64,000 nt of DNA from Archangium violaceum (GTDB taxonomy: Bacteria > Myxococcota > Myxococcia > Myxococcales > Myxococcaceae), in NCBI RefSeq assembly GCF_016859125.1, contig NZ_CP069338.1:2294001-2358000 (forward strand), in the 5' to 3' direction. The notes under the pieces were generated by a model. It was not told where the DNA came from and made no database searches. It saw only the letters and a program-made list of their open reading frames with translations. A program made the position numbers and the translations under genes. This document shows, piece by piece, positions 24,253 through 31,736 of this stretch. The number at the start of each line of letters is the position of its first letter. Position 1 is the stretch's first letter.

Positions 24253-24747
24253 TCAGCCTCTTTCCAGGACGGAGAGTAACAACTCCAATCCGCGCGCCGT
24301 CGCGGCCCGTCGGATCGCCGTCCGATCACCCGCGAAGAGGTGACGCTCGTGAAACACCGCGCCAGCGCGCCTGGCCACGGCCAGGTGGACGAGTCCCACG
24401 GGCCTGGCCGCCGAGCCACCGGAAGGGCCGGCGATGCCCGTCTCACCGAGCGCCAGGTCCGCATGGGAGCGAGCCAGCGCCCCCTCGGCGAGGGCACGCG
24501 CCACCGCCTCGCTGACCGCCCCATGGGCCACCATCAGCTCCACCGGCACGCCGAGCTGCTCCGTCTTGGCCTCGTTCGAGTAGGGGGCGAAGCCACGCTC
24601 CACCACGGCCGAGGCGCCGGGGATGTCCGTGAGGCACGCGCACACGAGTCCCGCCGTGCTGGCCTCGGCCAGGGCCAGCCGCAGGCCCGCGCGCCGGCAG
24701 GCCTCCAACACGCGGCGCGCCCGCTCCTCCAGCTCTGGGCCCGTCAC
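24253..24747 (-). CDS. cinA: CinA C-terminal (nicotinamide-nucleotide amidase-like) protein
   Basis: 164 residues, GTG 24747, overlapping the methyltransferase stop by 4 nt (GTGA), so coupled to it. The PF02464 fold is clear: GLRLALAEASTAGLV, AVVERGFAPYSNEAKTEQLG, AHGAVSEAVARALAEGALAR and ETGIAGPSGGSAARPVG. Stand-alone domains of this type (PncC) hydrolyse NMN to nicotinate mononucleotide. The motif usually written AESCTGG reads AEASTAG here, and AVTGIAGPGGG reads LGETGIAGPSGGS, so activity may have changed. NAD salvage would link it to pncB at 47.6 kb, but its coupling to a GRAS protein suggests something else. Confidence 0.85.
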   Translation of the reverse strand: MTGPELEERARRVLEACRRAGLRLALAEASTAGLVCACLTDIPGASAVVERGFAPYSNEAKTEQLGVPVELMVAHGAVSEAVARALAEGALARSHADLALGETGIAGPSGGSAARPVGLVHLAVARRAGAVFHERHLFAGDRTAIRRAATARGLELLLSVLERG

Positions 24748-25838
24748 ACTCTGGCGTCCAGGGTGGCGCAGATGACGGGGACCAGCATCTCCTCCCGGTG
24801 GCCCACGCCCACGTAGCCGGGACCCTGGCGGATGTGCACCGTGGGGTGCGGGAAGGACCAGGAGCCCTCGAGCAGCCGGGCCGGCGCCGGGGAGAAGCCC
24901 GCGTTGCACAGCCGCCCCAACCACGTCTCCACCCGCTCGTGCCGCTCGTAGCGCTGAGAGTCGTCCACCACGCCGAGGATGTCCTCCAGCTCGCGGCCGA
25001 AGAAGAGCTTGATGCCATTGCGCTCGCGCGCGGGCAGGCCCAGCTCGTCCACCACGTCGAAGTTGTGGGAGAAGTGATTCCAGACGTTGTGGAAGCGCTG
25101 GGACAGCACGTCGGTGACGTGGTCCGAGTTCGGCTCGCACAGCACCACGGCGGCGGGCGCCACCTCGTCGCGCAGCCGGTGGAAGATGTCCTGCCGGTCC
25201 ACGCCCGCGGCGATGTGGTGCAGGGCGAAGGCCGAGTGCACCACGCGAGGCCCGGGACAGTCGCGCAGCAGGCCCCAATCGTTCGCGTCGAGCGCCTCGA
25301 TGACCTTGGGGATACCCCGGAAGCGCAGGTCGATGCCGAGCTCCCGGGCCGTCTCCAGCAGGCTCGTCTCCGCCCGCCGCAGGCTGTCCGTGTCGGGTTC
25401 CACGCCCACCACGGTGAGCCGCCGGGGGGCCGTGCCGCTCTCCTTCAGCGTCCGCAGCAGCGCCACCTCCTGCCGCCCCGTGCCCAGGCCCACGTCCAGC
25501 AACGTGGCCTCCTCATGGCCCGAGAGCAGGCGGCTCAGCAGATCATTGGCGATCTTCCCGGCCAGTCCCACCATCGGCAGCCGCTCGGCCACCAGGTTGA
25601 AGAGGGCGATCTGCGGCAGCTCGTAGCGCCGCAGGTAGAGGTTCATCTGCTGCGCCTCTCCGACTCCCAACCTCCGCGCCAACGCCGTGGCGAAGAGGAA
25701 GTACTGCATGTCCTCATCCACCGTGTCGACGTCCAACATCCGTGTGAGCGCCGCCAACGAGCGCCGGGCCGCGGATGCCTGTCCTCCCTGGAGCTCCTCC
25801 AACGCCCGCAACAACCATGCGAATTTTTCCGAACGCAC
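24744..25838 (-). CDS. bacterial GRAS-family S-adenosylmethionine methyltransferase-like protein
   Basis: 364 residues from GTG 25838 with a GGAGGTGG ribosome site. A Rossmann glycine motif (TLLDVGLGTGRQEVALL) is followed by VVGVEPD and the order of motifs known from plant GRAS proteins: VVHSAFALHHI, PAAVVLCEPNSDHV, then FDVVDELGLPARERN, GRELEDILGVVDDSQRYERHERVETW and LCNAGFSPAP. In plants GRAS proteins (DELLA, SCR) are transcription regulators without catalysis; bacterial GRAS proteins are described as small-molecule methyltransferase relatives. The complete glycine loop suggests SAM binding here. An N-terminal helical region of about 90 residues precedes it. Co-translated with the CinA-C gene. 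Confidence 0.7.
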   Translation of the reverse strand: MRSEKFAWLLRALEELQGGQASAARRSLAALTRMLDVDTVDEDMQYFLFATALARRLGVGEAQQMNLYLRRYELPQIALFNLVAERLPMVGLAGKIANDLLSRLLSGHEEATLLDVGLGTGRQEVALLRTLKESGTAPRRLTVVGVEPDTDSLRRAETSLLETARELGIDLRFRGIPKVIEALDANDWGLLRDCPGPRVVHSAFALHHIAAGVDRQDIFHRLRDEVAPAAVVLCEPNSDHVTDVLSQRFHNVWNHFSHNFDVVDELGLPARERNGIKLFFGRELEDILGVVDDSQRYERHERVETWLGRLCNAGFSPAPARLLEGSWSFPHPTVHIRQGPGYVGVGHREEMLVPVICATLDARV

Positions 25839-27856: not shown

Positions 27857-27947
27857 ACGTTCGGGCACCTTCCGACACTCGGGGCGGAAAACTCCTCGGG
27901 GCCGGGCGGGGGCCGCTAGTGTCCTCGGGGCGAGAGGAGTGGGGAGC

Positions 27948-29477
27948 GTGAACGAAGCCGAGCTGTCCGAGGAGCCCGTTCGCCGGGTGTCGACCGGATC
28001 CCCGGGCCTGGACACCCTCTTGAATGGCGGGTGGATCCACGGTGGCACCTACATGGTCACCGGCGCACCCGGGACGGGGAAGACGATCCTCGGCAACCAG
28101 CTGTGCTTCTCGCACGTGGCGGGCGGAGGCCGGGCCGTGTTCGTCACCATGCTGTCCGAGTCCCACGGGCGGATGATGACGCACCTGCACCGCATGGACT
28201 TCTTCCAGCGCGACGTCATCGGCCAGTCGCTGCACTACGTGAGCGGCTACGCCACGCTCAAGGCCGAGGGGCTCGACGGGCTGGCGCGGTTGCTCTACCG
28301 CTCGGTACGCGAGCACCAGGCGTCGGTGCTGGTGGTGGACGGGCTGCTGGCGGTGCAGGAGAGCGCGGGCTCGGAGCTGAACTTCCGCGAGTTCCTCCAC
28401 GCGCTGGGGGTGCACAACGCGCTGGCCGGCTGCACCACGCTGGTGCTCACCAACTGGCAGGAGAACGCCGCGGCGCCACAATTCGCCATGGTGGACGGGG
28501 TGATGGTCCTGGACATGCAACGCCAGGGGCTCAAGGCGGTGCGCACCGTGGAGGTGACGAAGTTGCGCGGCGAGGCCCAGCTCATCGGCCAGCACACCTT
28601 CGAGATCAACGGCGGCGGGATTTGCGTCTACCCGCGCCTGGAGACGCTCTATTCCGAGCAGCCCCGGGAAGTGCCGGCCCCCGAGCGGCGGATGGGCTTC
28701 GGCGTACCGCGGCTGGACGGGATGATCGGCGGCGGGCTGCTGACCCACTCCTCCACGATGCTGTTCGGCTCGCCGGGCAGCGGCAAGACGCTGTTGGGGC
28801 TGCACTTCCTGGCGAGCGGGGCCCGCCAGGAAGAGCCCGGCCTCTACTACGGCTTCATGGAGTCGAGCCCCCGGCTGCTCACGAAGGCGTCGAACGTGGG
28901 CCTGGAGCTCCGTCCGTGGGTGGACTCGGGCTTGCTGGTGGTGGAGACACGCGCGGCGGTGGAAGCGCTCCCGGACGCCCTGGCCCACGAGCTGCTGGCC
29001 CTGGTGGATCGCCACAAGGCACGACGGCTCGTCATCGATGGACTGGAGCCGCTCCTCCAGGAGACGCTGGGCCCGCGGCGGACCCCCGGCTTCCTCATCG
29101 CCCTCACCAACGCGCTGCGCTCGCGCGGCATCACCTCGCTGATGACCCAGCAGACCCACGTGCACTTCGGACCCCTGCTGGAGGCAAGACTGGAGGGCCT
29201 GGAAGCCATCGTCGACAACATCGTGTTCCTCCGGTATGTGGAGCTGCGCTCCCAGCTGTACCGGATGCTGTCCATCTTCAAGATGCGCGAGAGCGATTAC
29301 GAATCCGCCCTGCGAGAGTTCTCCATCTCGACCCGGGGCATCGACGTGGCCGAGACCTTCGAGAGCGCCGAGGCCATCCTCACCGGCCAGGCCCTGCCGC
29401 CGCGGAAGAAGCAGAAGCGCTCGCTGCGCAGGAAAGTGGAACGGCGCATGCCCGCCCGGAGACGGAGCCGCTCATGA
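27948..29477 (+). CDS. double KaiC-domain ATPase
   Basis: 509 residues from GTG 27948 behind a purine-rich ribosome site (GAGAGGAGTGGGGAG). Two KaiC/RecA-like domains: Walker A GAPGTGKT at 39-46 and GSPGSGKT at 274-281; Walker B-like strands SVLVVDGLLAV and RRLVIDGLEPL; a Glu after each domain's second strand (MLSES, GFMESS). A basic C-terminal tail (486-509, RKKQKRSLRRK and on) replaces the KaiA-binding tail of clock KaiC. No KaiA or KaiB is nearby. The stop overlaps the response-regulator start by 4 nt (ATGA), so the two proteins probably work together. Likely a signalling ATPase rather than a clock. Confidence 0.92.
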   Translation: MNEAELSEEPVRRVSTGSPGLDTLLNGGWIHGGTYMVTGAPGTGKTILGNQLCFSHVAGGGRAVFVTMLSESHGRMMTHLHRMDFFQRDVIGQSLHYVSGYATLKAEGLDGLARLLYRSVREHQASVLVVDGLLAVQESAGSELNFREFLHALGVHNALAGCTTLVLTNWQENAAAPQFAMVDGVMVLDMQRQGLKAVRTVEVTKLRGEAQLIGQHTFEINGGGICVYPRLETLYSEQPREVPAPERRMGFGVPRLDGMIGGGLLTHSSTMLFGSPGSGKTLLGLHFLASGARQEEPGLYYGFMESSPRLLTKASNVGLELRPWVDSGLLVVETRAAVEALPDALAHELLALVDRHKARRLVIDGLEPLLQETLGPRRTPGFLIALTNALRSRGITSLMTQQTHVHFGPLLEARLEGLEAIVDNIVFLRYVELRSQLYRMLSIFKMRESDYESALREFSISTRGIDVAETFESAEAILTGQALPPRKKQKRSLRRKVERRMPARRRSRS

Positions 29478-30450: not shown

Positions 30451-30487
30451 TACCCTCACCCCATCCCTCTCCCGGAGGGCGAGGGGG
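30451..30487. repeat. REP-like element, copy 5, supplying a stop codon
   Basis: TACCCTCACCCC arm, then CCCTCTCCC GGA GGGCGAGGG (30465-30485, one mismatch in the arm). The hydrolase-OsmC gene reads into it and ends at a TGA formed by its outer arm (30456-30458), adding the tail SPSPSGRGMG. Confidence 0.85.
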
Positions 30488-31736
30488 ATTGTTCACCGTC
30501 GGCCTCCTCATCATCCTCCAGGAAAGTGTTCACGTCGATTTCGGACTCCAGCGTGCGGTGCACCGGACAGCGGTCCGCCATCTGCACCAGCCGCTGCCGC
30601 TGCTCCGGGCTCAGCGGCCCCTCCAGCGTCACCACCCGGTCGATGCGGTCCACCTTGCCCTCCTTCGTCTCGCAGTGCCGGCAATCCTCGGCGTGCACCT
30701 TCGAGTGGCTCAGCCGCACCGAGACGTGCTCCAGCGGCCAGCCCTTGTTGCGCGCGTACAGGCGCAGCGTCATCGCCGTGCATGCCCCCAGCGCCGCCGC
30801 CAGCAGCCCATAGGGCGAGGGGCCCGTGTCCCCCCCACCGAAGGACGTCGGCTCGTCCGCGCGCAGCCGGTGCCGCCCCACCCGGATGTCCTGCGCGAAC
30901 GGGCCCTCCCCCGCCTCGCGCACCTCCACCACGCCCTGGGCCAGCTCCGGCCCGTCCTCGCGCTGCGCCTCCACCTCCCGGGAGCCCACGTACCGCCCCG
31001 CCCACGCCCCCACCATCGCCGCCGCGAAGCGCGCGTCCTCCGGCCGGCTCAACAGGTGGTCCGCTCCCTCCAGTGACAGGATGCTCTTGGGCTGGCGCGC
31101 CGCCGCGTAGAGGCGCTGCGCCTCCCCCATCCCCACCACCCCGTCCCCCGGCGCGTGCAGCACCAGCAGGGCCCGGCCCAGCCGGTGCAGCACGTCCTCC
31201 ATCGGCGACCGGGTGAGCGCCTCCAGGAAGTGCCGGGAGACGCGCATCGACCCCTCACCCAGCCGCACCCGCGCCTCCCCCTGCTCGCCCGCCTGCTTCA
31301 GCACCGGCGCCAACAACCCGTGGACCTGGCGCGGCTCGAAGGGCGCCCCGAGCGTCGCCACCGCCCTCGCCTCGGGCACCTCGCCCGCCGCGTGAAGCAC
31401 CGCCGTGCCGCCCAGGCTGTGGCCGATGAGCAGCCGGGGTGCTTCCCGAGTGGCCCGCAGGTGCGCCACCGCCGCCAGCACGTCCGCGACATCCGAGAAG
31501 TCGTGCGTGACGGGAGCATCCGCGCCGGCCTCCGTGAAATCGAAGCGCAGCACCGCCAGCCCATGCCCCGCCAGCGCCTGGCTGATGGCCCTGGCAGGGA
31601 AGGAGCCGCCCCCGCACGTGAAGCAATGCGCGAACAGGGCATGGGCCACCGGGCTCCGCGCCGGCAGGTCCAGGTACGCTTCCAGCTTCCGGCCCCGGGC
31701 TCCCGGGAAGGTCACTCTTTCGGTACGGGTCTCCAT
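30456..31736 (-). CDS. alpha/beta hydrolase-OsmC fusion protein
   Basis: 426 residues. N-terminal alpha/beta hydrolase (about 1-250) with nucleophile S107 in GHSLGG, an Asp in LHAPGDGVV and a His in GADHLLS. C-terminal OsmC/Ohr peroxiredoxin-like domain (about 265-410) with both catalytic Cys, C319 (ALGACTAM) and C390 (ADRCPVHR), which reduce organic hydroperoxides. This fusion is a known bacterial architecture. The last ten residues are encoded by a REP element, which also gives the stop. Followed upstream in the operon by a hydrolase gene (15 bp) and a phosphoribosyltransferase gene, a stress-type cluster. Confidence 0.94.
   Translation of the reverse strand: METRTERVTFPGARGRKLEAYLDLPARSPVAHALFAHCFTCGGGSFPARAISQALAGHGLAVLRFDFTEAGADAPVTHDFSDVADVLAAVAHLRATREAPRLLIGHSLGGTAVLHAAGEVPEARAVATLGAPFEPRQVHGLLAPVLKQAGEQGEARVRLGEGSMRVSRHFLEALTRSPMEDVLHRLGRALLVLHAPGDGVVGMGEAQRLYAAARQPKSILSLEGADHLLSRPEDARFAAAMVGAWAGRYVGSREVEAQREDGPELAQGVVEVREAGEGPFAQDIRVGRHRLRADEPTSFGGGDTGPSPYGLLAAALGACTAMTLRLYARNKGWPLEHVSVRLSHSKVHAEDCRHCETKEGKVDRIDRVVTLEGPLSPEQRQRLVQMADRCPVHRTLESEIDVNTFLEDDEEADGEQSPSPSGRGMG

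Follow-up and report, generated by a model that had tools for sequence, protein, structure and literature searches.

The window analysed here, a 64,000-nucleotide stretch of Archangium violaceum DNA, carries on its reverse strand three genes that encode, in order, a GRAS-domain protein, a CinA-C protein lacking the catalytic serine of its relatives and a SpoIIAA-like protein. The features of the locus, in window coordinates and in the direction of transcription, are listed below.

24744-25838, reverse strand: gene for the GRAS-domain protein (GTG start, 364 amino acids), with the GRAS fold over its whole length and a PF03514 score of 100.9 bits
25470-25496, reverse strand: SAM-binding glycine loop DVGLGTGRQ, residues 115-123, marked by conservation of G117 and G119
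25215-25220, reverse strand: His-His pair H207-H208, past the fourth strand of the sheet, marked by conservation
24744-24747, reverse strand: 4-nt overlap (GTGA) between the GRAS stop codon and the CinA-C start codon, seen in the sequence
24253-24747, reverse strand: gene for a serine-less CinA-C (PncC-like) paralogue (GTG start, 164 amino acids), with a PF02464 score of 158.9 bits
24661-24663, reverse strand: CinA-C codon 29, GCC (Ala), at the place of the nucleophilic Ser of active NMN deamidases
24565-24567, reverse strand: CinA-C codon 61 (Lys), the general base of the Ser/Lys pair, retained (from alignment and PMC5384747)
23746-24141, reverse strand: third gene, encoding a SpoIIAA-like (STAS-fold) protein of 131 amino acids (PF11964, 25.9 bits against a cut-off of 25)

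The overlap between the first two genes, reported in a preliminary description of this DNA, is real, and suggests that the GRAS and CinA-C proteins may be translated jointly. Elsewhere in the window lie a gene for a two-domain KaiC-like ATPase (27915-29477), with a response-regulator-like open frame directly behind it, and a single gene in which alpha/beta-hydrolase and OsmC domains are fused (30456-31736).

The preliminary description had assigned the product of the first gene to the GRAS family, and this assignment holds. The protein exceeds the PF03514 cut-off of 27 bits, whilst Methyltransf_23 reaches 17.4 bits, under its own cut-off of 27, and NCBIfam yields just a sub-cut-off methyltransferase match. 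The match is not a chance one: at E ≤ 0.001 the 12.7-Mb genome yields no other GRAS match, and 14 control genomes yield none at all. The solved structures nearest by sequence are those of plant DELLA and SCL proteins, with E values down to 3.3e-15. No unrelated methyltransferase family gave a better match, either by sequence or by fold. Of the motif blocks that had been quoted, FD..D..LP.....R and GRE...I........R.ERHE are present, but the spacing given as ERHE..W is in fact ERHE....W.

To compare the fold with plant GRAS structures, we used an AlphaFold model built with 22 aligned relatives (pLDDT 90.2, pTM 0.89). Ranks 1-12 of the Foldseek search were all plant GRAS chains (query TM 0.77-0.83); rank 13 fell to 0.40, and no later row among the matches listed exceeded 0.47, nicotinamide N-methyltransferases being found amongst these weaker matches. 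In the VIA comparison, the best match was SCL3 (6kpb_C; Z 37.5, rmsd 2.5, 344 residues, model range 1-362), and rows 1-8 were all plant GRAS entries (Z 33.6-37.5). The model is thus alike in fold over its whole length to plant GRAS proteins (SCL3, RGA/DELLA, SCL7 and SHR/SCR), despite sequence identities of 18-21%, and its alignment to 6kpb_C is predicted to take in the entire domain, including the cap and the SAW part. As modelled, the bacterial GRAS domain is a class I methyltransferase fold furnished, as in plant GRAS domains, with a helical cap and the C-terminal parts. This agrees with the description of bacterial GRAS domains as having a Rossmann methyltransferase fold (Zhang, Iyer and Aravind 2012, as cited in PMC4279901, PMC5332381 and PMC9942845).

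The SAM glycine loop (LLDVGLGTGRQ, residues 113-123) is intact, as the preliminary description had stated. G117, G119, H207, H208, E235, R282, E283 and W306 are identical in all 44 GRAS sequences that have a CinA-C gene beside them, and G117 and G119 are also found in 25/25 other bacterial GRAS sequences. D115 is invariant in the linked set (44/44) and present in 16 of the 25 others, whilst G121 is kept in 42/44 linked sequences. The acidic residue that ends strand 2 (residue 147) is D or E in 44/44. Judged by sequence, then, the GRAS protein appears to possess both the glycine loop and the strand-2 acidic residue of class I SAM methyltransferases, and it may act as one. R299 and E301, like R282, E283 and W306, are present in every linked sequence; PFYRE (R-E) and SAW (R-E, W) are motif names taken from PMC4279901, but their assignment to these residues is our own. 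When aligned to DELLA1, R299, E301 and W306 match and an R-x-E-R-H-E....W block is common to both, whereas DELLA1 has K-Q where the myxobacterial proteins have R282-E283. The DELLA1 loop (DFGLKQGMQ) likewise has K in place of the second glycine, which the bacterial loop retains. Plant GRAS proteins have a role in transcription; the bacterial proteins are likened to them by sequence and fold alone.

The best non-GRAS structural matches of the model were O-methyltransferases of the CysG/BelI type (CysG, Z 18.4), over about 210 aligned residues. Enzymes of this type are metal dependent and have a His-His-Asp metal site (PMC11408123). As the window protein has an invariant His-His pair (H207 is found in 25/25 other bacterial GRAS sequences and H208 in 23/25), a CysG/BelI-like metal site was considered, but no Asp partner was identified.

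The second gene product matches the CinA-C family far above the cut-off (23.5 bits), PF02464 being its sole Pfam match, and the nearest solved structure by sequence is that of Agrobacterium tumefaciens CinA (2A9S, E 3.5e-38). Family, pocket and catalytic Lys are shared with the NMN deamidases (PncC/CinA-C), but where active enzymes have ESCTGG the window protein has EASTAG, placing Ala at the position of the nucleophilic Ser (S31 in A. tumefaciens CinA, S29 in E. coli PncC). In A. tumefaciens CinA, S31 and K63 are reported to form the catalytic pair, and an S31A protein had no detectable activity whilst its stability was unchanged (PMC5384747). The partner, described earlier as NMN-amidase-like, therefore deserves that name for its fold but, lacking the catalytic serine, probably not for its activity. 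The loss is general: in 43 distinct GRAS-linked CinA-C sequences the S31 position is Ala in 41 and Ser in two (G143 and G148), whilst in 39 distinct CinA sequences from outside this clade, drawn from 41 hand-picked loci mostly taken from one match list, it is Ser in 38, the remaining one being a fragment (L194) that is unreadable there.

These observations make it highly improbable that the locus simply pairs a working NMN deamidase with a small-molecule methyltransferase, with nothing special in its mechanism. Both proteins do belong to known Pfam families, but absence of the catalytic Ser disfavours this reading and the genome encodes, elsewhere, a second CinA of 420 amino acids with an intact serine motif (ALAESCTGG) that could fill the housekeeping role.

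What has been kept is as informative as what has been lost. The window protein has the catalytic Lys and every one of the residues that bind phosphate and ribose (together G46, S48, Y58, K63 and R145). Complete, unbroken linked sequences likewise retain E30, G46, S48, Y58, K63, T105, G106, A108, G109, P110, G120 and R145 (exceptions being the single row L135/L158, where a gap spans the positions of Y58 and K63, and the frameshifted A. violaceum row L004, in which R145 is unreadable). Inactive CinA lineages have been described before, in the form of YdeJ, YfaY and fungal proteins with active-site changes, the YfaY-type and fungal proteins having lost S31 (PMC3855486). According to the same source, however, these also lose G46/S48, Y58, K63 or R145, depending on the lineage, whereas the GRAS-linked proteins lose the Ser alone. 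Since the earlier inactive lineages have lost pocket or lysine residues too, loss of the Ser only is a different state.

Nor does the gene appear to be decaying. Pairwise pN/pS values of 0.09-0.56 (11 linked pairs) and 0.11-0.34 (four pairs of CinA-C genes with no GRAS gene beside them) point to purifying selection. That the protein is a decaying duplicate, its serine lost by drift, is thus barely credible, given also that the other pocket residues are kept. What can be said for decay is that the gene is a paralogue of a retained CinA and that the linked copy of A. violaceum Cb vi76 lies in two frames. This last break (L004/L177) resembles a frameshift and could be a sequencing error.

In a quick tree made without the S31 column, the minimum number of changes at this position is four, namely one Ser-to-Ala change followed by three later ones, with the basal copies from genome G012 carrying Ser. 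SH-aLRT, the sole support measure used, was 98 for the 54-row clade and 83 for the 52-row group that remains without the G012 copies. The tree leaves out eight of 100 distinct rows (five truncated at contig ends before the end of the protein, one carrying a frameshift, another an internal gap, and the misread fragment L194); all of these except L194 are included in the counts for the serine position.

What might a serine-less CinA-C do? E. coli PncC carrying S29A is reported not to hydrolyse NMN yet to bind it with a Kd of 37-64 µM, and NaMN with a Kd of 11.7-59 µM (PMC8231969). Most likely, the window protein too has kept the ability to bind NMN, NaMN or a closely related compound while no longer cleaving what it binds. 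An alternative is that the CinA-C protein is still catalytic, with water activated by the lysine, or a nearby Cys or Ser, doing the work of the lost serine, and that the GRAS protein methylates the same pyridine-nucleotide metabolite, so that the two would catalyse a two-step modification or salvage. Retention of the lysine and other pocket residues is in keeping with this, as are the water-based mechanism proposed for Thermus CinA (as recounted in PMC5384747) and the presence of nicotinamide N-methyltransferases lower down the Foldseek ranking for the GRAS model. However, A. tumefaciens CinA S31A is reported to be inactive even though C32 is present (PMC5384747), and position 32 in the present set is variously Cys, Ser or Gly. 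We regard this alternative as quite improbable.

The third gene encodes a protein with the SpoIIAA fold, as judged from its AlphaFold model (pLDDT 90.5): the top Foldseek match was 2q3l, which has a SpoIIAA-like fold (TM 0.67), with chains of SpoIIAA and RsbV ranking next, whilst PF11964 is barely above its cut-off. No invariant Ser is found at residues 53-61, past strand 3, in 20 STAS-like sequences, S102 being the sole invariant Ser, so that a phospho-switch like that of classical anti-anti-sigma factors is not supported. A STAS-like gene follows CinA-C on the same strand at all 39 GRAS loci that extend far enough, the other five ending less than 340 nt past GRAS. Orthologues (E < 1e-38) are present in 46 genomes, 41 of which also have a CinA-linked GRAS gene. 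Over 195 Myxococcota genomes, 41 have both GRAS and STAS genes, three GRAS only, five STAS only and 146 neither. In all three GRAS-only genomes the locus runs into a contig edge. G051 is entered here as STAS only, its GRAS being a distant copy elsewhere, and G121 and G123, where the STAS gene was found and a GRAS match was not, are very fragmented assemblies. Weaker STAS-like paralogues (E ~1e-35 to 1e-28) occur in the genus of the window and in group g11.

The preliminary description had also put forward the GRAS/CinA-C gene pair as a point on which conservation should be checked, and the pair proved to be strongly conserved. A GRAS protein scoring above the cut-off is encoded by 47/195 Myxococcota genomes, 45 of them from the family of the window, the Myxococcaceae. 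In 44 of these 45, CinA-C is the next recognised gene downstream of GRAS on the same strand, the exception being G051, and the arrangement is therefore found in 44/44 genomes with this GRAS orthologue. Amongst those with a name are Archangium violaceum, Hyalangium versicolor, Citreicoccus inhibens and Myxococcus, Pyxidicoccus and Corallococcus species. Genome G037, from the same genus group as the window genome, has a GRAS sequence identical to that of A. violaceum Cb vi76. Across the 44, CinA-C begins between -12 and +376 nt from the GRAS stop codon; a start codon that would give the 4-nt overlap is available in the CinA-C frame in 36/44, although at some loci, including some with an available overlap start, the likely start lies 100-380 nt past the GRAS stop. 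Identity to the window GRAS protein drops to about 42% within this set. The 44 linked GRAS proteins nevertheless form a single clade (support 93/94, just below the star of the program), within which the genus groups g1, g15, g17, g23 and g26 each form a clade; the Runella copies L151 and L157 were left out of this tree, and several outgroup branches are long. The arrangement has thus been passed down by descent and lost in places: both G051 and G153 lack GRAS between otherwise matching flanks, where the CinA-C and STAS genes remain.

Serine-less CinA-C genes are also found with no adjacent GRAS gene, in 19 genomes that include nine of 9.0-9.5 Mb from genus group g23. The same clade has 18 distinct lone sequences, of which 16 have Ala (15) or Asp (one) at the S31 position and the remaining two, both from G012, have Ser. 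The Asp is encoded by a GAC codon in the lone copy L107. No STAS gene lies beside the lone CinA-C at 17/20 loci (one with less than 500 nt downstream), and the neighbours, seen at a few loci, are mixed. Persistence of the serine-less protein without GRAS implies some GRAS-independent use, and we do not claim that pairing with GRAS caused the serine loss, as the lone copies are mostly serine-less too.

The converse situation, GRAS without CinA-C, was found outside the Myxococcaceae. A scan with two peptide patterns, which was not exhaustive, gave 36 loci. With the window protein as tblastn query, no CinA was found at any of 17 non-Myxococcaceae GRAS loci (up to 4 kb on each side), which belong to Streptosporangiaceae, Bacillaceae, Paenibacillaceae, Bacteroidota and other groups, and the pair is thus ruled out as a general feature of bacterial GRAS proteins. 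Twenty neighbouring proteins chosen from 16 loci revealed no single function amongst them; they included response regulators, a histidine kinase with SpoIIE, an aminotransferase, a weak V4R match and a globin on the opposite strand. GRAS lies beside an Hpt/histidine-kinase protein and a SpoIIE phosphatase in a Spirochaetales MAG (L156, 2323-6569), beside a LytTR response regulator in Taibaiella (L148, 2921-6081) and beside a response regulator in Ectobacillus (L130, 3287-5080). In a Gemmatimonadaceae MAG it is followed by the V4R match, a sub-cut-off one to a possible small-molecule-binding domain (L125, 5041-5568). A divergent GRAS-like methyltransferase (47.9 bits; L100, 6972-7844) directly follows genes that, from reading of their sequences alone, appear to encode a cysteine-synthase-like protein and a PLP-enzyme-like protein. 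Within group g23 (Myxococcus/Pyxidicoccus), six genomes (L094, L096, L143, L147, L169 and L170) carry a second, divergent GRAS gene, and no CinA was detected next to it; at L094, L096, L143 and L147, the four inspected, the match to the query does not begin until about residue 78, and at L094 a DUF885 gene lies next door.

Taken together, the lone CinA-C genes, the two Ser-bearing linked copies, the CinA-free GRAS loci and the tracking of GRAS by STAS describe an association that is lineage-specific and long kept but not obligate. A rival reading is mere co-transcription, in which GRAS, with STAS, would do one job whilst the serine-less CinA-C would be a free-standing ligand-binding protein of the Myxococcaceae that happens to share the operon. 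Serine-less CinA-C persists without GRAS amid varied neighbours, other groups have GRAS without CinA, G051 and G153 retain CinA-C and the STAS gene after losing GRAS, and the distribution of STAS matches that of GRAS more closely than the distribution of CinA-C does. Yet order and strand have been kept in 44/44 genomes from five genus groups, which is hard to preserve without a functional link. On this evidence co-transcription alone is an unlikely explanation, albeit one to be taken seriously.

Our preferred reading, held tentatively and at something less than an even chance, is that these three myxobacterial genes form a sensing module in which a pyridine-nucleotide sensor is coupled to a protein of the GRAS methyltransferase fold. 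The CinA-C protein would be made in step with GRAS as its ligand-reading subunit, would hold NMN or NaMN without cleavage and, by binding to the GRAS protein, would gate the activity of the latter. The STAS-fold protein would then be the likely output or scaffold.

Such a module invites comparison with gibberellin reception in plants, where GID1, a non-catalytic relative of hydrolases, is reported to read the hormone and bind a GRAS protein (PMC3531792). By analogy, a dead hydrolase, the serine-less CinA-C, might read a pyridine mononucleotide and switch the GRAS protein by ligand-dependent binding, an idea that we consider rather doubtful. The likeness is one of logic only (a non-catalytic, hydrolase-derived reader of a small molecule with a GRAS partner), and the binding is, in the present case, a proposal. 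The hydrolase family and the ligand differ: CinA-C matches PF02464 alone and shows no membership of the alpha/beta-hydrolase family of GID1. The window GRAS protein also has no DELLA region, the GRAS match beginning at residue 9 and so leaving no space for one at the N-terminus. This is analogy, therefore, and not homology.

Bacterial GRAS proteins and inactive CinA proteins were each known separately. Our literature search found, among the matches listed, no report of a GRAS domain together with CinA/PncC, nor of a conserved trio with loss of the nucleophile only, although the 2012 paper on bacterial GRAS proteins lay outside that search and may mention the pairing. Compared with what that paper is cited for, the domain and fold are the same, and what is added for the Myxococcaceae is the conserved serine-less CinA-C and STAS-like partners. 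Plant GRAS regulators are held to derive from soil bacteria (PMC9942845), and no tested function for any bacterial GRAS protein was found in the literature searched. A conserved partner with a guessable ligand brings such a function within reach of experiment, using just two or three small proteins. PncC with a Ser-to-Ala change has been engineered as an NMN-binding probe (PMC8231969); a protein with that same change in nature would be a natural pyridine-nucleotide sensor. If the analogy with gibberellin reception were to hold, it would mean that GRAS domains are predisposed to take disarmed hydrolases as partners and that the myxobacterial pairing arose independently of GID1 and DELLA.
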